From NCBI RefSeq assembly GCF_900103165.1, contig NZ_FNKY01000001.1, forward strand, positions 930,001-994,000: a DNA stretch of 64,000 bases, written 5' to 3'. Shown piece by piece: positions 2,021 through 60,598 of the stretch. Numbering within the stretch: position 1 is the first letter of the stretch; every line of letters begins with the position of its first letter. The notes below the pieces were generated by a model. It did not search any database. It saw only the letters and a list, made by a program, of their open reading frames with translations, and was not told the DNA's origin. The stretch comes from Nitrosospira multiformis. Lineage in GTDB: Bacteria > Pseudomonadota > Gammaproteobacteria > Burkholderiales > Nitrosomonadaceae. Both the position numbers and the translations under genes were made by a program.

Positions 2021-3244
2021 GTGATAACCTACATCTATATCCTCGGAGATAGTGAGACGAATATCTGGGGCCTGAGTGGCCGCGAGCGACTGCAACGGAT
2101 GTTAAAGGCATTTAAGCAGACCAGAGTGATCGATAGTCCCGAGCAGATTCCAGCACGTGCGCCAGCATTATTCTTACGGGCAGATCATTTGTTTGATGCC
2201 AGAGTCCTGATGGCGTTAGTTAACACGCAAGTGAACCTGGTGCTTAGCAGTGACGCAGGCCAGCCGGTCGCAATCCGGATTACTGATGGAGATATGCACC
2301 ATGCGCTGGCGAGTTTCATGGACGGGGGGAAAGGAGAGTCTTTCTCCACCTTGCCTCGTTATACCCTAAGAGATTTGAATCTGTTGGGTCTTCAGCAAAC
2401 TCTCAAGAAAAGGGATCTGCCCTACCTATTACCTATCAGTAGAGATAACTGCCGGCGGCTGGAGTCAGAACTCTTTGCCCGATCGTACAAAGGCGTGACC
2501 GACCTCGTGACGAAATGGCTCTGGCCCATACCCGCATCCTGGGCTGTTCGCGTTTGTGTGCGCTTCGGTATACGGCCAAACCAGGTTACGCTGCTCAGTC
2601 TTGTGTTTGCAGTGCTGGCTGGGGTTGCCTTCTGGTACGGCCACTATGGCATAGGTCTGGTGATGGGATGGCTGATGACCTTTATGGATACGGTCGATGG
2701 GAAGCTGGCGCGAGTAACCGTCACCTCAAGCCGTGTTGGAGATGTGCTCGATCACGGCCTGGATATTATTCATCCACCGCTATGGTATATGGCCTGGGGT
2801 GTAGGCTTGACAGCAGCACTAACGCAGACAGCCGACTTGCCAATGATGTTCTCGTTGATACTCATCGGTTATGTGGGTGGCCGATTGTGTGAAGGAGTTT
2901 TCCAGTTTTGGATCGCATCATTTGATATTTTTATCTGGCGCCCACTGGATTCATTTAACCGGCTCATTACCGCACGGCGTAATCCTAACCTGATCCTGTT
3001 GACATTCGGCTGGTTTATAGACCGGCCGGACATCGGGCTCTGGTTGGTAATTATCTGGCATCTTCTCTCCACCCTCTTTCTTGCTGTTCGGGTAATGATG
3101 GGTTGGCAAGCACGGCGGGCGCACGGGCCTTTACGATCATGGTTTGAGGACATTGTACCTGGCGAGGATGAAGGGAAACTGGCGGTTCGTATTTTTGCAC
3201 CCTTGGCAGTTAGGAAAAATGATAGAAAATTCACGGATAGATAG
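2021..3244 (+). CDS. CDP-alcohol phosphatidyltransferase with N-terminal extra domain
   Basis: Predicted membrane enzyme that joins a CDP-activated lipid (or alcohol) to an alcohol acceptor. The full family signature D-G-x2-A-R-x8-G-x3-D-x3-D is present: D226, G227, A230, R231, G240, D244, D248, inside a block of about six membrane helices (residues 175-400). Residues 1-160 form a soluble N-terminal domain; the layout resembles archaeal/bacterial di-myo-inositol-phosphate-phosphate synthases, but the N-terminal nucleotide-binding GxGxR motif is not visible, so that part may be degenerate. The GTG start has no clear Shine-Dalgarno and an in-frame stop lies at 1979-1981; the next ATG is residue 27, so the start is uncertain. 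First gene of a three-gene lipid cassette. The acceptor alcohol cannot be told from sequence. Confidence 0.82.
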   Translation: MITYIYILGDSETNIWGLSGRERLQRMLKAFKQTRVIDSPEQIPARAPALFLRADHLFDARVLMALVNTQVNLVLSSDAGQPVAIRITDGDMHHALASFMDGGKGESFSTLPRYTLRDLNLLGLQQTLKKRDLPYLLPISRDNCRRLESELFARSYKGVTDLVTKWLWPIPASWAVRVCVRFGIRPNQVTLLSLVFAVLAGVAFWYGHYGIGLVMGWLMTFMDTVDGKLARVTVTSSRVGDVLDHGLDIIHPPLWYMAWGVGLTAALTQTADLPMMFSLILIGYVGGRLCEGVFQFWIASFDIFIWRPLDSFNRLITARRNPNLILLTFGWFIDRPDIGLWLVIIWHLLSTLFLAVRVMMGWQARRAHGPLRSWFEDIVPGEDEGKLAVRIFAPLAVRKNDRKFTDR

Positions 3245-3263
3245 ATTGAGATCTGGGGGGGCT

Positions 3264-4232
3264 ATGATCGGATTGCTTTTCAATCCTCTCAGCGGACGTA
3301 TTCGCAAGCGCAAGGATGCAATAAGGCGGGTACTCGCCGAGATTCCGGGTGCAACCTGCAGTGAAGTCACGAACGAACCTGAGATTAACGCATCGGTGGA
3401 TGCTTTTGTACGGGCAGATGTTGATTTGCTGGTAATTATTGGTGGAGATGGTACCGTACAGGGAGTCTTGTGTCATTTGTTTGCAACGCAACCACTCGCA
3501 AGATGGCCTGCACTAACGATTATCCCGGGCGGTACCACCAACATGACAGCGCTGGATCTGGGTATCTGCGGTAAACCGGAATTTATTCTCCAGCAATTGA
3601 AGGGGGATCTGCTGAAGCAAATCCCCCCGGTATTTTTACAGCGCCATGTGCTGTGCATTGAACAAGCCGGGGTGGCAAAGGTTTATGGAATGTTTTTTGG
3701 TGTCGGATTGATTGCCCGCGCTGTGATATTTTCTCAGAGCAAGATAAAACAGTTGGGCATTACCGGAGAAATTTATTCAGGTCTTATTACAGTTGTTTAT
3801 CTTATTGGCCTGATTTTCGGGCGTCGTCACGGAGCCTGGGCACCGGTCCGGATGTCAATTATCGAGAGGAATATTGAGCTGCATCATGGAACCTATGCAT
3901 TTCTCTTCGCCAGCACCCTGGATCGCTTGTTGTTTGGCATGCGTCCGTACTGGGGAAAAGAGGAGGAACCGCTTCATATAACATTTGTTCGGCAGAAACC
4001 GAATCGTCCCTTACGTTCGCTATTGGCGCTACTTTCAGGCCACGGAGGCTCCCTTAAAGAGCAAGACGGTTATCATAGTTGCAATACCGGGGCGCTGGAG
4101 CTGTTGATCGATGACGATTACATCGTCGATGGCGAATCCTACCGGGCATCAAGCGAGAATGGACCATTGCGTATTACAGCAGCCGGTCCAATTACCTTCT
4201 TGGGAGCCGGTAAGGTAAACTCACAGTCATGA
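3264..4232 (+). CDS. Diacylglycerol kinase-like lipid kinase
   Basis: Member of the DAGK catalytic family (DgkB/YegS/BmrU type) that phosphorylates a lipid alcohol, most simply diacylglycerol to phosphatidate. I choose the ATG at 3264, after a run of six G, giving 322 residues and the typical opening MIGLLFNPLSGR. Motifs: NPLSGR (7-12), the nucleotide-binding GGDGT at 60-64, and IIPGGTTNM near residues 88-96, all in the usual order; the C-terminal beta-sandwich ends in AAGPITFLGAGKV. It follows the CDP-alcohol transferase after 19 bp and its stop overlaps the next gene (ATGA), so the three proteins are probably made together. Sphingosine or ceramide-like substrates are possible alternatives. 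Confidence 0.82.
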   Translation: MIGLLFNPLSGRIRKRKDAIRRVLAEIPGATCSEVTNEPEINASVDAFVRADVDLLVIIGGDGTVQGVLCHLFATQPLARWPALTIIPGGTTNMTALDLGICGKPEFILQQLKGDLLKQIPPVFLQRHVLCIEQAGVAKVYGMFFGVGLIARAVIFSQSKIKQLGITGEIYSGLITVVYLIGLIFGRRHGAWAPVRMSIIERNIELHHGTYAFLFASTLDRLLFGMRPYWGKEEEPLHITFVRQKPNRPLRSLLALLSGHGGSLKEQDGYHSCNTGALELLIDDDYIVDGESYRASSENGPLRITAAGPITFLGAGKVNSQS

Positions 4233-5212
4233 CAGACCACGCCTCGATATTTGATCAACCCATTCCCAACAATCTAGTCGCCGAGATTGCTTCGCTGAGC
4301 TCAAGGGCTGTATCAGCGGATTTTCTTGTTCTGGTTGAAGCATTGAAATCACGGTTCGGCTCATCGCTGGAGGCCGTTCTCCTTTATGGATCCTGCCTGC
4401 GGTCCGATGATCTTGGTGATGGCGTCGTGGATTTCTACGCTATCGTAAACAGCTACGGTAAAGCTTACCCAGAGCGTTATCTTGGATACCTTAATGCGTG
4501 GTTGGCACCCAATGTGTTTTATCTCGAGGTATCCGCACCGGGACATACGCAGGAAAAGAAATTCCGCGCCAAATACGCCGTAGTCTCAATGACAGATTTC
4601 GAGCAAGGCACTTGGCGCTGGTTTCATCCGTATCTGTGGGCACGCTTTGCCCAACCTTCCCGATTGTTGTACGTGCGTGACGAGACCATCCGCAAGCATA
4701 TTTACACTGCGCTGGCCCGCGCTGTCGTGACATTTCTGAAATCCAGTCTTCCCATGCTGAACTCGTCCGTGGCGAACGTTGAAGCAATCTGGGTCAACGG
4801 TTTGACGCAGACCTATGCAGCCGAACTGCGGCCCGAACGTGCGACGCGAGCGCAACAGCTTGCCCAGATCAATCTGGATGATTACACACGGTTGACCGAG
4901 CATGCGGCGCCGGTATTAGTGGGCATGCTGGAGATGTTGCCGGACGGGGACTATCGATGCCTGATCAATGCAGCGGACCGTCGGCGTGCGCAATGGCGCT
5001 GGCGATTACGCCGCTGGCAGGGCACGGTCCTGTCGGTGCTACGGCTGACAAAGGCGGCATTTACCTTCAGCGACAGCATTAGTTATGCTGCATGGAAGAT
5101 CGAACGCCATACTGGAGTGCGCGTTGAGGTGACGCCCATGTTACGGCGGCATCCGGTGCTATGGGGTTTTAAGGTTTCGTGGCAATTGTTGCGGCGTGGA
5201 GTAATACGCTGA
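4229..5212 (+). CDS. Tam41/Mmp37-like phosphatidate cytidylyltransferase (predicted)
   Basis: Soluble 327-residue protein with a nucleotidyltransferase core: LLYGS (51-55) followed by the acidic residue of VVDFYAIV (D68). Remembered features of mitochondrial Tam41 recur in order: the core, KYAVVS (115-120, Tam41 has KYGVIS), LWARFAQPSRLL (136-147, matching LYIAGRLQKPV), the segment VNGLTQTYAAELR (189-201, matching IAGLSYSGDFRM) and a C-terminal KAAFTF...ISYAAWKI stretch. Tam41 makes CDP-diacylglycerol from phosphatidate and CTP. Coupled by ATGA overlap to a lipid kinase and sitting with a CDP-alcohol phosphatidyltransferase, that activity would complete a pathway from diacylglycerol to phospholipid. 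The homology is recognised by eye, not computed; the function is inferred from it and from context. Confidence 0.65.
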   Translation: MTDHASIFDQPIPNNLVAEIASLSSRAVSADFLVLVEALKSRFGSSLEAVLLYGSCLRSDDLGDGVVDFYAIVNSYGKAYPERYLGYLNAWLAPNVFYLEVSAPGHTQEKKFRAKYAVVSMTDFEQGTWRWFHPYLWARFAQPSRLLYVRDETIRKHIYTALARAVVTFLKSSLPMLNSSVANVEAIWVNGLTQTYAAELRPERATRAQQLAQINLDDYTRLTEHAAPVLVGMLEMLPDGDYRCLINAADRRRAQWRWRLRRWQGTVLSVLRLTKAAFTFSDSISYAAWKIERHTGVRVEVTPMLRRHPVLWGFKVSWQLLRRGVIR

Positions 5213-5240: not shown

Positions 5241-7898
5241 TTAAGGATTTTTACCCAAATACCCCTGTGCAATGCGGTAATATATCCGCCGCAATGGTTT
5301 GCCGTCAGGTGTGGCTACTCGCTGTTCCTGTATCGGTCCAGGCTGTACGAGCATCCGGCCAATGTCAGGGATTCTTCGGGTACGCTCGAGCTCGTGGTCC
5401 CTCATTCCCACCAGGATGATTGGCAGGGACGTGGGCGGCTCCGATGGATACCAGAAATCGTACATGGCGCCGCTGTCGCCAAACATATTGCGCGAGCGTA
5501 TCTCCATTGGTTTGCCGCTGCGATTGTAAAAGGAAAGGGAGGCGGCCACCGACCATTTACTCATTCCTACCACAATGGGCTCTTGCCCCGTTCGTTGTCG
5601 AACTTCCGCTACAACCTGCTCGATTTCCCTAGTGGCCTCCCGCCAGAAATAGTGTTCCGACAAAAAGTTATAGGGGATGCCGGGGATGCCGAGCACCACG
5701 TAGTGCAGTACAAATGCGTAGAGAAAGATGCAAACTGCAATGGTAGGTTTCCAGGCCGCTTTCACACGGCGTGCGAGGGTACTGAAATCGCCCGCCTGAC
5801 CCATCAACCAAGCCATGGTTGGCAGCAGCGCAAGCCATGCCGGTCCAGTCCAGTGAAACCGCTGCGACTCGGAAATACTGAGAACGAAGAACACTGCCAG
5901 CGGCACGCCGGCGAATACTCGTACGAATAGTCGGCGCCTGCGTGCATAGGTGCTGGAGTCGCGCTCGGTTCGCGGCCAGACCGCCATGATTGCGGCAAGC
6001 AAGCCCACCGGCGTCAACAGGACCATAAGATGGAGAAATAATAGATGTGCCGCAAATTGATCTTCACTTCCTCCCTTGACCCGGTTTGACTGGAACATGA
6101 TCGACGCCCAATTATTGTCCATATTCCAGATAATGACGGGCGAGAACATCAGAAGGGCAAGCGCGGCGGCGAGGTATGGCTGCGGACGGCGTAGCCAGCG
6201 GCGTGAGGCGGGGTCTAGAATCACGAACAACAGCGCCGCCGGTCCCAGCAGGCCCAGCGTATACTTGGACAGTATCCCCAGGCCGAATGCAATGCCCATA
6301 CCCAGCCAGGCTGAACGTTGATCAGCGATCAATGCCCGTTCCATGTAGTACAGTGTCGCGGCCCAGGCGGCCACCAGCGGCGCATCCGTTGTCATCACCA
6401 TGCCGGTGGAAAAATAAAACGGCAGTATGGCCAACAGCAGCACTGCGCGCATGCCGGTGGATTTGTCGTACAGGTTGCGTGCCAGCGCATATAGGTAGCC
6501 CATTGTTATCAGGCCGCAGATGAATGCACCGATGCGAACGCCGAACTCCGTATCGCCGAAGATGGCGGTGCCCAGCCAGATCAGCCACGCCACCATGGGT
6601 GGGTGATCGTAAAAGCTCAGTTCCATGTGCTGGGCATAATTCCAGTAGTAGGCCTCATCGGGAATCAGCTGTGCCTGGCCCAGGTAGATCAGGCGCAGCA
6701 ATACGGCAAAGGCGACAATGCCGAGCGAGGCTACCCGCCAGCGCACATCCGCCGAGGGAAGGTCCTGCTGGACAGGGAACACGTAGAAGGCGCTACCGAG
6801 ATACTGGAGGGCGGCCGTGACTGCGACAGCGGGAAATATCGCCAGCATGGGGGCCATATGCCAGCCATAGACCAGCCATGCCAGGACCCCGCCGCGCATC
6901 AGCAAGGTGAATAGCCCCATCGTCAGGAAACGGCCAAAATGAGACCATCGCGGATAGCCTGCGGGGGGAGGCTGGAACGTCCATTTCGAGTTGAGCGGGT
7001 AATTCACCGCGGCGGCGGCGAAGAAACTCACGATGTGCGCCAGCGCGAGGCCGGCACCCCGGCTCATGAGCCACTGGAACAGGAGGATGTCGATAACGAG
7101 ACCCAACAGCCCCACCGCCGCAAACCGGCCGGTGCTGCCGAAGGAAACCGTGCCGCCAGCCAGTGTCACCAGGCGTTTCAGATCAATCCATTGGGAATGG
7201 AACGATAGCCTGGCGGTGCCATGTGTGCGCTGCTGAAAGCAAACAGGCACTTCCACGACTCTAAGCTTGCCCTGGCCGGCCATGAGCAGTTCGAGCAGGG
7301 TTTTATATCCGCGAGCGCGTTCGGTGAGAGTGGCGGCCAGTTCCCGGCGGAAGGCAAAGAATCCCGAAGTGGTGTCACTCACATCACAGAGAGAGCGGGC
7401 ACACCAGTCCCCCAGGCGCGACAGCCATTGGCGGTGTGGCCATCCCCCGGTGCCGCCGCCTGGCACATGGCGGCTCCCGACAGCCACGTCATGGCTGCCG
7501 TCCAGCAGCGGGGCCACCAGAGCGGGCAGTCGCTCAGGCGGATGACTCGGATCCATCACGACGATGACATCACTCTGCGCCAGCGCCACACCCGCCAGAA
7601 TCGATCCTGCCAGGTCCGGCTGCTCATGCCGCTCGATCAATCTCACGTTCGCCTGCGCCTCCCAGGCGCGCACCCGGCTGGGAGTTCCATCGCGCGAACC
7701 ATCATCGACAAAAATGACTTCAAAACTACCCGATGCCAGATCCAGTGCAAACAGACGCGTCAGTAATGGATCTATGTGGTCTGCTTCGTCAAGCGTGGGA
7801 ATCACCACGGAAAATCGTGTCAAGAATACCTCTGAAGATTGAGCAACAGACCTGCCTGCCTGCAAGGTGGCAACATTATGCCGGGTGAAATACTGCAT
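5241..7898 (-). CDS. GT2-GtrA-GT39 three-domain membrane glycosyltransferase
   Basis: An 885-residue fusion. Part 1 (about residues 27-245) is a dolichyl-phosphate-mannose-synthase-like GT2 domain: FSVVIPTLDEADH, IFVDDGSRDGT, VVMDPSHPPE and the conserved SGFFAFRR. Part 2 (about 255-375) is a GtrA-like four-helix module starting at GRFAAVGLLGLVIDILLF. Part 3 (about 385-885) is a multi-pass GT39/ArnT-like domain with DEAYYW and FYDHPPMVAW, typical of enzymes that use polyprenyl-phosphate sugars. Together they suggest making a polyprenyl-phosphate sugar, flipping it and transferring it to a periplasmic acceptor such as lipid A, lipid or protein. It converges with the lipid cassette, with 28 bp between stop codons. 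The exact start is uncertain; the domain begins only at residue 27. Confidence 0.85.
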   Translation of the reverse strand: MQYFTRHNVATLQAGRSVAQSSEVFLTRFSVVIPTLDEADHIDPLLTRLFALDLASGSFEVIFVDDGSRDGTPSRVRAWEAQANVRLIERHEQPDLAGSILAGVALAQSDVIVVMDPSHPPERLPALVAPLLDGSHDVAVGSRHVPGGGTGGWPHRQWLSRLGDWCARSLCDVSDTTSGFFAFRRELAATLTERARGYKTLLELLMAGQGKLRVVEVPVCFQQRTHGTARLSFHSQWIDLKRLVTLAGGTVSFGSTGRFAAVGLLGLVIDILLFQWLMSRGAGLALAHIVSFFAAAAVNYPLNSKWTFQPPPAGYPRWSHFGRFLTMGLFTLLMRGGVLAWLVYGWHMAPMLAIFPAVAVTAALQYLGSAFYVFPVQQDLPSADVRWRVASLGIVAFAVLLRLIYLGQAQLIPDEAYYWNYAQHMELSFYDHPPMVAWLIWLGTAIFGDTEFGVRIGAFICGLITMGYLYALARNLYDKSTGMRAVLLLAILPFYFSTGMVMTTDAPLVAAWAATLYYMERALIADQRSAWLGMGIAFGLGILSKYTLGLLGPAALLFVILDPASRRWLRRPQPYLAAALALLMFSPVIIWNMDNNWASIMFQSNRVKGGSEDQFAAHLLFLHLMVLLTPVGLLAAIMAVWPRTERDSSTYARRRRLFVRVFAGVPLAVFFVLSISESQRFHWTGPAWLALLPTMAWLMGQAGDFSTLARRVKAAWKPTIAVCIFLYAFVLHYVVLGIPGIPYNFLSEHYFWREATREIEQVVAEVRQRTGQEPIVVGMSKWSVAASLSFYNRSGKPMEIRSRNMFGDSGAMYDFWYPSEPPTSLPIILVGMRDHELERTRRIPDIGRMLVQPGPIQEQRVATPDGKPLRRIYYRIAQGYLGKNP

Positions 7899-8115: not shown

Positions 8116-8817
8116 CTACGCGGACTGGCGATCAGCATAGTAATGCTGAACAGGACCCAGTTCATGATCAAGGTTGTATACCAACGGACGTCCCGTTGCT
8201 ATGGATAATTTCATGAGTTGGGAAACGGACAATCCATCCAACTGCATCATCAATGAGCGTAAGACGTGCCGGTGAGATACGACGAGAACCCGCTTCCCAC
8301 GCAGGATCTCGGGTACGATGGTTTCCTGCCAATAAGGCAAGACCCGTGAATGAGTCTGCTGCATGCTCTCCGCAAGCGGCAATTCATTCTTGTCAACATC
8401 TGAATAACGGAGCTGATTTCCTGGACAACGGGCATCATCGGGACCCAGTGGGGGAGGTACTGCAGTAAACCGCAACTGGGGGCTCAGGACGGGCCATATG
8501 CCAAATTTCCCGATAGCATTAATACGATGAACTCCCTCCAGCGCGCCATAGTGGCGCTCATTCAAGCGCCAGCTCTGCCGTGTGGTCAATCCGTCAAGCC
8601 CCATCGCCGACAATACGATACGCGATGTGTCAGTGGCTCGTCTAAGTTCCGAAGTAAAACATATGTCGAACTCACAGCCCGCCTCTTTGAGCAGCCGACC
8701 GGCCTGCTCCGCCTGATGCTCACCCCGGTGACTCAATGCGACATCGTTCCAGCCGGTAAAATACCCATCCCGGTTCGAGATGCTTTCCCCATGTCGCAAC
8801 AAAACAAGTTGTATCAT
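8116..8817 (-). CDS. GpmA-like 2,3-BPG-dependent phosphoglycerate mutase, divergent
   Basis: Histidine-phosphatase-superfamily protein of 233 residues. It shows LLRHGES (H9 would be the phosphohistidine), [17 protein letters not shown] (E87), a PPPL segment and PLAES, in the order and at nearly the length of GpmA (about 230-250). The second active-site block, normally AAHGNSLRAL, reads [10 protein letters not shown] here (H182 kept, GN replaced by RH), and the middle segment [14 protein letters not shown] also departs from the usual sequence. It may be a functional mutase or a related phosphatase with changed specificity. It stands alone between non-coding stretches, near the carbohydrate genes. 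Confidence 0.8.
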
Positions 8818-9899: not shown

Positions 9900-10691
9900 C
9901 TAACCTGTGCAAAGACGGTTATGCAGCACTTTATCTTGATTTATTTTGCTAAAAAGTGCCTCCGCCTTTTCCAGGTCCCCGGCAAAATCAATTTCACATG
10001 AGAAGTGCTCGGACACAAAACACGTATTCACTAATTGCTTGGCTGCCAGAGCATCTATGATGGAGAGATACCAGAATTTAAGCTTTTCTTGATCCCGCAG
10101 TGCCTCTTCGACCGCATTGCGAAACAGTTGTGGCCCGTGCTCCCGAAAAAAAATAAGTCCGATGGACTCGCAGTCGATTTGATTCGCGGATAAGCTCTTA
10201 CTTACATGCTTGACCCATCCCCTCTTGTCCAACTGAACCTTCATGTCGTCTGCATCGTAGATGGGTTTGTGACTTACGCTGAGGGTAATGGGTGCGGAGG
10301 CCGAGTTCAACACCTGCATCAGTAGCGCCTTATCAAAAATAGTATCTCCATTCATGAGCAGAAAATCACGATCCATGACAGAGCGTGCAATCCAGCAACT
10401 GGCCAGATTGTCCGCAACCTCGAAGAACGGATTAAAAATCGTATGAATCCGTGCTCGATTTTCATAGCTTTGCAACAGGGCTTCAACCAGACTGGATTTA
10501 AAACCGGTGACGACAGCGATGTCATGAATTCCGGCAGCGAGTAACGCATCAATCTGCCATTCAATAATTGGCCTGCCCCCGATTGGTAACAAACACTTTG
10601 GAATGTTTTCAGTTAGCGGCAGCAATCGCCGCCCCTGACCCGCGCTGAGAATAATCGCTTTGATAGGGCTTTTTTCTTTGTTGCCAGTCAT
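9900..10691 (-). CDS. Nucleotidyltransferase of sugar/alditol/choline-phosphate type
   Basis: 263-residue GT-A-fold pyrophosphorylase. The N-terminal AIILSAGQGRRLLPLT (about 13-28) and PKCLLPIGGRPIIEW are the NTP-binding and substrate-binding signatures; LLMNGDTIFD holds the metal-binding aspartate, and CEIDFAGDLEKAE near the C-terminus resembles the metal motif of LicC-like choline-phosphate cytidylyltransferases and some sugar-phosphate uridylyltransferases. Short length argues against a bifunctional GlmU-type enzyme. Reads in the same direction as the upstream sugar operon but is separated from it by an IS remnant; an original single operon is plausible. Confidence 0.8.
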   Translation of the reverse strand: MTGNKEKSPIKAIILSAGQGRRLLPLTENIPKCLLPIGGRPIIEWQIDALLAAGIHDIAVVTGFKSSLVEALLQSYENRARIHTIFNPFFEVADNLASCWIARSVMDRDFLLMNGDTIFDKALLMQVLNSASAPITLSVSHKPIYDADDMKVQLDKRGWVKHVSKSLSANQIDCESIGLIFFREHGPQLFRNAVEEALRDQEKLKFWYLSIIDALAAKQLVNTCFVSEHFSCEIDFAGDLEKAEALFSKINQDKVLHNRLCTG

Positions 10692-59827: not shown

Positions 59828-60598
59828 CTACGTAGCGGCTTCCGTCGTTTTTTTTCTTTTTATCAGGCGCCACAGCCACATAACATAACCAGAAAGGGCA
59901 TAAAGAAGGAATAGGCAAAATAGCACAACGGGAGGGTGGCTGGGAATCAGCACAAAGAAGAACAGCGCCAGAAACAGAACGGTAATGAAGGGTACGCTCT
60001 TGCGCAGATTAATTGCTTTGCCGCTGTAATAGGGGAGATTGCTGACCATTGTCAGTCCGGCAAACAGTGTGATACCCCACGCGAGCCATCGGATATCCGG
60101 CCCTGCTATTTCGAAGTCCAGCATTACCCAAACCAGTCCTGCAATCAGAGCGGCCGCAGCCGGAGTGGGCAGGCCTTGAAAAAATCGCTTGTCCACTATC
60201 TCTATGTTGGTGTTGAAACGTGCGAGACGCAACGCAGCACAGACACAGTAAATAAAAGCAGCAATCCAGCCCCACTTACCCATGCCCTTCAGGGCCCATT
60301 CGTATATCACCAGCGCGGGGGCAGCACCGAACGAAACCATGTCGGACAGGCTATCGTATTCCGCACCAAACTCGCTCTGGGTGTGTGTCAGCCGCGCTAC
60401 CCGGCCATCCAGCCCATCCAGCACCATCGCAATGAAAATTGATACTGCGGAGTGTTCAAAACGACCGTTCATCGCCTGTACGATGGCGTAAAAGCCGGCA
60501 AACAATGCGGCGGTGGTGAATAAGTTGGGTAGTAAGTAAATGCCCCGCCGGCGCAATTTTGATTTGAGCATGAGACGTGGCAAATGAGGATCATGCAT
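59828..60598 (-). CDS. pssA: CDP-diacylglycerol-serine O-phosphatidyltransferase
   Basis: 256-residue membrane enzyme making phosphatidylserine, precursor of phosphatidylethanolamine. The CDP-alcohol signature DGLDGRVARLTHTQSEFGAEYDSLSD has D-G-x2-A-R-x8-G-x3-D-x3-D intact. About seven hydrophobic helices are visible, with a basic C-terminus. The start could instead be MLKSKLRRRGIYLLPN (60571); neither has a clear ribosome site. Follows the ilvBHC genes, a common betaproteobacterial order (ilvC-pssA). Confidence 0.92.
   Translation of the reverse strand: MHDPHLPRLMLKSKLRRRGIYLLPNLFTTAALFAGFYAIVQAMNGRFEHSAVSIFIAMVLDGLDGRVARLTHTQSEFGAEYDSLSDMVSFGAAPALVIYEWALKGMGKWGWIAAFIYCVCAALRLARFNTNIEIVDKRFFQGLPTPAAAALIAGLVWVMLDFEIAGPDIRWLAWGITLFAGLTMVSNLPYYSGKAINLRKSVPFITVLFLALFFFVLIPSHPPVVLFCLFLLYALSGYVMWLWRLIKRKKTTEAAT

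Follow-up and report, generated by a model that had tools for sequence, protein, structure and literature searches.

The locus and its protein families

The window analysed here is a 64,000-nucleotide stretch of Nitrosospira multiformis DNA (contig NZ_FNKY01000001.1, positions 930,001 to 994,000), to which coordinates refer unless another locus is named. Our subject is a trio of lipid genes at 2021-5212, numbered gene 1 to gene 3, which an initial annotation had taken for a complete route from diacylglycerol (DAG) through phosphatidate (PA) and cytidine diphosphate (CDP)-DAG to phospholipid, and which we compare with the cpgA-cpgB-cpgC genes of bacterial sphingolipid synthesis:

2021 to 3244, + strand: gene 1, cpgA-like CDP-alcohol phosphotransferase, residues 1 to about 140 forming a cytidylyltransferase-like N-terminal domain; PF01066, structure match to AF2299, motif
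3264 to 4232, + strand: gene 2, cpgB-like (ceramide) lipid kinase with a GGDGT motif; PF00781, adjoins gene 3
4229 to 5212, + strand: gene 3, cpgC-like, candidate cytidylyltransferase of the Tam41 fold; profile match to 6IG2, Foldseek ranks 1-5, invariant residues

The three open reading frames (ORFs) were found on the + strand where they had been placed, encoding proteins of 407 residues (gene 1, GTG start), 322 residues (gene 2, counted from the ATG at 3264; the mechanical ORF begins at 3144) and 327 residues (gene 3). Pfam bears out the families assigned to gene 1 (38.2 bits to PF01066, cut-off 22) and gene 2 (59.6 bits to PF00781 DAGK_cat, cut-off 23.6), and the stop of the kinase gene shares an ATGA with the start of gene 3 (4229-4232). 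The housekeeping gene pssA does lie at the far end of the window (59828-60598) and passes its NCBIfam equivalog cut-off (121 versus 107 bits). The host genome (G000) measures 3.5 Mb, Nitrosospira supplies the nearest named relatives of gene 3, and scans for promoters and terminators returned matches at chance level only.

Alone, the gene 3 protein scored 13.4 bits against PF09139 (E 0.051), under the Pfam cut-off of 24, and a phmmer search of the PDB with the single sequence found no relative; relatives came only with a profile. By contrast, 31 of 41 gene 3 relatives match PF09139 at E ≤0.1 (best 4.9e-11). A PF09139 scan of the host genome gave no match, but no control rang either, so that this result is uninformative alone. 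The best PDB matches of a profile built from the 41 homologs were the Tam41 entries 6IG2 and 6IG4 (E about 5e-9; 4.8e-9 for 6IG2), the Firmicutes Tam41 7ECD matched at E 0.0012, and the Tam41 entries were followed by one nucleotidyltransferase (E 0.009) and then by chance-like matches. An AlphaFold model of the protein (mean predicted local distance difference test score, pLDDT, 88.5; predicted template modelling score 0.87) retrieved only Tam41 chains at Foldseek ranks 1-5 (E 1.8e-8 to 2.3e-7), and below them mostly aminoglycoside nucleotidyltransferases with template modelling (TM) scores of ≤0.36. The invariant columns of the alignment include G54, D68, K115 and R139, and in the profile alignment D68 and K115 fall on the YGS...D and KY motifs of Tam41. 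The predicted fold thus has Tam41, and not an unrelated nucleotidyltransferase, as its best PDB match and, with profile and model agreeing, the gene 3 protein is a remote relative of Tam41 and a candidate cytidylyltransferase of that fold. A bacterial Tam41 is not in itself the novelty it had seemed, as the Firmicutes structure 7ECD already exists; Tam41 homologs are reported from Firmicutes and proteobacteria, and a bacterial Tam41 makes CDP-DAG (PMC11646218, relaying Kimura et al., 2022).

Gene 1 carries the motif D-x2-D-G-x2-A-R-x8-G-x3-D-x3-D at residues 223-248, invariant across 26 sequences, in keeping with the pattern D-x2-D-G-x2-A-R-x7-8-G-x3-D-x3-D that we take to be the CDP-alcohol phosphotransferase (PF01066) motif. 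The best match of its predicted model (mean pLDDT 83.7) is AF2299, aligned along almost the entire protein with the N-terminal domain included (E 7.1e-12); phosphatidylinositol phosphate (PIP) synthases and IPCT-DIPPS follow, while cytidylyltransferases alone match weakly (E 0.08 or worse). Among PDB entries, the single sequence favours cholinephosphotransferases and the profile PIP synthases. Judged from the model, the fold cannot tell a CDP-lipid donor from a CDP-head-group donor.

Conservation, fusions and linkage to ceramide genes

We surveyed 61 genomes of the family, 369 of the class and 398 of the phylum. Gene 3 is present in 60/61, 20/369 and 27/398 of these genomes, respectively; three of the 27 (G000, G003 and G073) were in the class set as well. 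The kinase gene adjoins gene 3 in every one of the 29 family loci read (L001-L007, L047-L067 and L086, drawn from the 60 genomes of the family in which gene 3 occurs); given this and the presence of gene 3 in nearly all family genomes, the arrangement is not due to chance. The proposal that the genes are a conserved functional group holds. Gene 1 occurs in 21 of the 29 loci (one of the eight loci without it, L002, stops at a contig edge). Whole-genome searches located gene 1 in 44/61 family genomes; if only the 50 with at least 90% completeness and at most 5% contamination are counted, 40 have it. In G002, G022 and G034 it lies away from the trio locus. Of the 60 family genomes having gene 3, 16 gave no gene 1 match, and some of those 16 are incomplete. 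Six gene 1 matches contain one stop each, and in the two that were read (L047 and L059) an ORF spans nearly the whole match. Of the 18 class loci that come from other families (L068-L085; window proteins as queries, E 1e-4), 11 have the kinase, 7 gene 1 and 5 all three genes together. All 24 phylum loci outside the class contain the kinase, and in 13 of them the locus of about 4 kb also includes an spt-like match at E 1e-30 or better.

In 9/61 family genomes the open frame that holds gene 3 is 665-709 residues long, and in all nine loci (L047-L055) kinase and gene 3 are fused into a single ORF of 664-699 residues. On a tree of 47 gene 3 proteins the fusion label takes two changes, and well-supported branches force two: one clade has eight of the fusions, and the ninth (G050) falls within the genus of the window genome. 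The kinase has gene 3, rather than gene 1, as its fusion partner, as would be expected if the gene 3 protein worked on the kinase product.

In the host the trio closes a same-strand run of seven genes, namely a ceramide-synthase-like gene, a nucleotidyltransferase gene resembling Caulobacter CC_1153, lptF, lptG, cpgA, cpgB and cpgC, the first two lying just upstream of the window. The synthase-like gene owes its label to its position beside the CC_1153-like gene, as for CC_1154, and to a GNAT match of a homolog, bacterial ceramide synthase being presumably GNAT-like. Elsewhere in the host (G000:C1, about 348-352 kb) a row of genes encodes an adenosine monophosphate ligase, a CerR-type epimerase-family protein, an acyl carrier protein (ACP) and an Spt-type aminotransferase-family protein, an aasR-cerR-acpR-spt-like order; judged by family and order, spt, cerR, acpR and aasR types are thus present, as is a cerS type, judged by its position and by homology to genes in the clusters of other genomes. 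The synthase-like protein was searched in the same 369-genome class draw as gene 3 and counted at 100 bits or more, a line set after the scores had been seen, which gave 24/369 genomes and left six weaker matches, all under 42 bits, uncounted. Both genes occur in 19 genomes, gene 3 only in 1, the synthase-like gene only in 5 and neither in 344 (Fisher p 2.8e-26; p 6e-24 with the host's own family left out, the sole correction for kinship). Within the family, they lie within 15 kb of each other in 57 of the 59 genomes with both, G025 and G060 having them on different contigs. Together with this co-occurrence, the presence of spt next to gene 3 in other bacterial orders links gene 3 to ceramide.

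Two further genes were seen in such surroundings. An MsbA-like ABC exporter gene, a candidate for a sphingolipid flippase, lies directly 3' of the spt-type gene (L090:9529-11277), with one homolog (63%) at L060:8163-9842, inside the kinase/CpgC cluster of G004, and another (48%) at L075:724-2445, near CpgABC of G194. Just upstream of the host's ceramide-synthase-like gene, L097:3443-4669 (- strand) encodes by eye a beta-ketoacyl-ACP synthase, possibly the supplier of a special acyl chain.

The trio as a probable sphingolipid head-group module

The closest known system is the Cpg pathway of Caulobacter crescentus, where CpgB (CC_1160) is a demonstrated ceramide kinase, CpgC (CC_1161) carries an InterPro CDP-DAG-synthase domain and CpgD (CC_1152) has been shown to be a CDP-glycerate synthase (PMC11324152, PMC12275187, PMC10331486, PMC13228409 and PMC9386255 jointly). 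Ceramide phosphoglycerate (CPG) requires CC_1160 and CC_1161, and ceramide diphosphoglycerate (CPG2) requires CC_1159 (CpgA, a CDP-alcohol phosphotransferase), CC_1153 and CC_1152, with CC_1158 contributing without being essential (PMC11324152). CpgA acts downstream of the CpgB and CpgC steps, and its proposed donor is CDP-glycerate, not a CDP-lipid (PMC11324152, PMC13228409). Almost every genus in which cpgB occurs either makes sphingolipids or has the genes for them (PMC10331486). For Nitrosomonas eutropha (N. eutropha), good orthologs were reported in 2024 for 13 or more of the 17 cluster genes, and formation of CPG and CPG2 was expected from them (PMC11324152). Because of that report, we regard the trio as a further member of a known system.

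Our favoured reading, at a probability of about 0.83, is that genes 1 to 3, found in a Nitrosospira-like genome, are the cpgA-cpgB-cpgC module of the pathway by which proteobacteria make phosphosphingolipids. On our analysis they look like a head-group module turning ceramide into an acidic outer-membrane lipid, and not like a new route to ordinary phospholipid. The earlier idea of a pathway separate from pssA, for a lipid bearing an unusual head group, was probably sound.

Starting from ceramide phosphate, the Tam41-like protein would in a second step move cytidine monophosphate (CMP) from cytidine triphosphate (CTP) onto this lipid to give CDP-ceramide; the published authors suggest a nucleoside diphosphate-activated ceramide. 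For this step alone we put the odds slightly above even, and the fusions of two origins and the predicted Tam41 fold favour it. In a third step glycerate or phosphoglycerate would displace CMP to yield CPG. In a fourth, following the published proposal, the CDP-alcohol phosphotransferase would add a second phosphoglycerate from CDP-glycerate, supplied by the CpgD-like protein encoded at 9900-10691, to yield CPG2, which the neighbouring LptF/LptG would perhaps help to carry to the outer membrane.

Several observations weigh against the ceramide module, beyond the bit line and the kinship correction given above. The overlay of the gene 3 model on Tam41 is loose (TM 0.46-0.59, root-mean-square deviation 5.8-7.1), orthology to the Caulobacter genes is judged from family, order and context, and the host's ceramide-synthase-like protein has no Pfam or NCBIfam match. 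Gene 3 occurs without the synthase-like gene in G065 (29% identity, 62% complete), the reverse holds in G152, G170, G216, G287 and G327, and no kinase was detected in 7 of the 18 class loci from other families. Neighbouring genes may co-occur simply as parts of a cluster, on whichever substrate it acts, and in vitro the activity of Caulobacter CpgB on DAG is comparable to that on ceramide (PMC10331486).

The alternative that survives best, though we think it unlikely, keeps the ceramide module but has the Tam41-like protein put glycerate or phosphoglycerate straight onto ceramide-1-phosphate, as first proposed by Zik and colleagues; since it differs from our reading in the second step alone, the probability given to it is partly shared with the module itself. 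Deletion of cpgC blocks the conversion of ceramide-1-phosphate to CPG (PMC12275187, PMC11324152), as direct transfer would predict, and the 2024 account of the pathway knows of no separate condensing enzyme (PMC11324152). However, the fold predicted for gene 3 belongs to cytidylyltransferases that use CTP, with the conserved positions of Tam41 retained, and the 2024 authors themselves deem direct attachment of glycerate energetically not very favourable (PMC11324152). It is improbable that the module acts in vivo on both ceramide and DAG, also giving a glycerophospholipid analogue of CPG: the relaxed in vitro specificity of CpgB would allow this, but PA was reported unchanged on deletion of Caulobacter cpgB (PMC10331486) and gene 3 co-occurs with the synthase-like gene.

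Least probable of all, and rejected here, is the route of the initial annotation, in which the kinase turns DAG into PA, the Tam41-like protein makes CDP-DAG without CdsA and the phosphotransferase forms a special glycerophospholipid: the known activity of Tam41 and its bacterial relative (PMC11646218), the DAGK domain of the kinase with the DAG activity of CpgB (PMC10331486) and the CDP-DAG-using PIP synthases at the top of the gene 1 profile search speak for it, but are outweighed by the linkage to ceramide synthesis genes (the synthase-like gene in the same run and in 19 of the 20 class genomes with gene 3; spt-like genes in 13/24 phylum loci), by the unchanged PA (PMC10331486) and by the position of CpgA as the last enzyme, CPG being made without it (PMC11324152). 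Nor is the trio an obligate CDP-DAG route, since gene 1 was not found in 16/60 family genomes with gene 3.

Possible lipid export, neighbouring genes and known systems

The trio is preceded by the pair that may help in export:

1 to 770, + strand: lptF, 3' part (the gene begins upstream of the window; whole ORF L097:7695-8771); TIGR04407, PF03739
767 to 1831, + strand: lptG, in ATGA overlap with lptF; TIGR04408, PF03739

Both exceed their NCBIfam equivalog cut-offs (lptF, 330.4 bits to TIGR04407, cut-off 230; lptG, 326 bits to TIGR04408, cut-off 240), and beyond this pair (L097:7695-9832) the host genome has no PF03739 match. PF03739 genes over cut-off occur in 59 family genomes, exactly two in each of 58 and three in G034; no such match over cut-off was found in G021 and G028. 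At least one LptF/LptG gene lies within 10 kb of the synthase-like gene in 59/59 family genomes. The third gene of G034 (G034:C1:210206-215650) lies about 3 kb from a relocated cpgA, apart from the main cluster. A KdsB encoded in the window, which passes subfamily cut-offs and misses the TIGR00466 equivalog cut-off, suggests that lipopolysaccharide (LPS) is made. As the family has a single pair inside the cluster, LPS is suggested and the Caulobacter cluster has second copies, LptF2/LptG2 (PMC11324152), export of LPS and sphingolipid by the same LptF/LptG is, from gene content, a fair guess. In the open-licence literature searched, LptF, sphingolipid and Caulobacter come together only in PMC11324152. 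The combined proposal, that CpgC is a CTP:ceramide-1-phosphate cytidylyltransferase, that the fused enzymes channel the kinase product and that the single LptF/LptG pair of ammonia oxidisers exports both lipids, is tentative, and we would sooner bet against it as a whole.

The predicted donor for the last step would come from the following gene:

9900 to 10691, - strand: cpgD-like cytidylyltransferase (LicC/IMPCT type), candidate CDP-glycerate synthase; PF00483, PDB matches

Its best PDB matches are LicC (1JYK, E 4.7e-15) and IMPCT (4JD0, E 2.1e-4), it contains GRR, PKCL and NGD motifs, which may correspond to the conserved R, K and D of CpgD-type proteins, and a homolog lies inside the locus in 7/18 class loci outside the family. 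This IPCT-like neighbour, with NCBIfam matches of gene 1 to archaetidylinositol and PIP synthases (far under cut-off), had raised the possibility of an inositol lipid, which we rejected because the published CpgD and the ceramide genes account better for both. Close by, 8116-8817 (- strand) encodes a phosphoglycerate mutase; phosphoglycerate is the CpgD substrate, and the link is positional only. A three-part GT2-GtrA-GT39 glycosyltransferase is encoded at 5241-7898 (- strand). The part in lipid glycosylation once suggested for it was dropped, as it stands beside the trio in only 3 of the 29 family loci (L002, L004 and, in part, L060), some loci ending within about 0.7 kb of gene 3.

If the ceramide module is real and CpgC acts as proposed, a Tam41-type enzyme would give bacteria CDP-ceramide, the sphingolipid counterpart of CDP-DAG. 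No paper in the open-licence literature searched pairs CDP-ceramide with bacteria, and co-mentions of sphingolipid and Nitrosospira there concern, by title and abstract, other matters. The trio would then belong with bacterial sphingolipids instead of ordinary phospholipid synthesis, and acidic sphingolipids are predicted across the ammonia-oxidising Nitrosomonadaceae. Two observations are new here: fusions of the kinase with CpgC that arose twice and, taken with the predicted Tam41 fold, favour CDP-ceramide as the CpgC product, and the single family LptF/LptG pair inside the cluster.

Compared with known systems, gene 3 resembles the CDP-DAG synthase Tam41/TAMM41 (6IG2, 6IG4; Firmicutes 7ECD) in its predicted fold and its YGS...D and KY motifs, and departs from it in identity (12-14% over the structural match), in its single-sequence Pfam score under cut-off and in its linkage to ceramide genes and a ceramide-type kinase. 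Gene 1 shares the CDP-alcohol phosphotransferase motif with AF2299, IPCT-DIPPS and PIP synthases, the AF2299 match covering also the N-terminal cytidylyltransferase-like domain, but its context suggests CDP-glycerate and a sphingolipid acceptor instead of inositol phosphate. From the Caulobacter cluster the host differs in having its spt-type row at a separate place and a single LptF/LptG pair, and some of its relatives have kinase-CpgC fusions or no detected cpgA. No CC_1158-type phosphoesterase matched in the host genome, in a search without a positive control; the host resembles N. eutropha in this, from which a CC_1158-like gene was published as absent (PMC11324152), and the order aasR, acpR, spt is printed for both N. 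eutropha and Caulobacter (PMC9386255). With CC_1159-CC_1160-CC_1161 of Caulobacter the trio shares the same families in the same A-B-C order, and with the wider cluster the host run shares the synthase-like gene, the CC_1153-like nucleotidyltransferase and LptF/LptG, the spt-type row being present in the genome.

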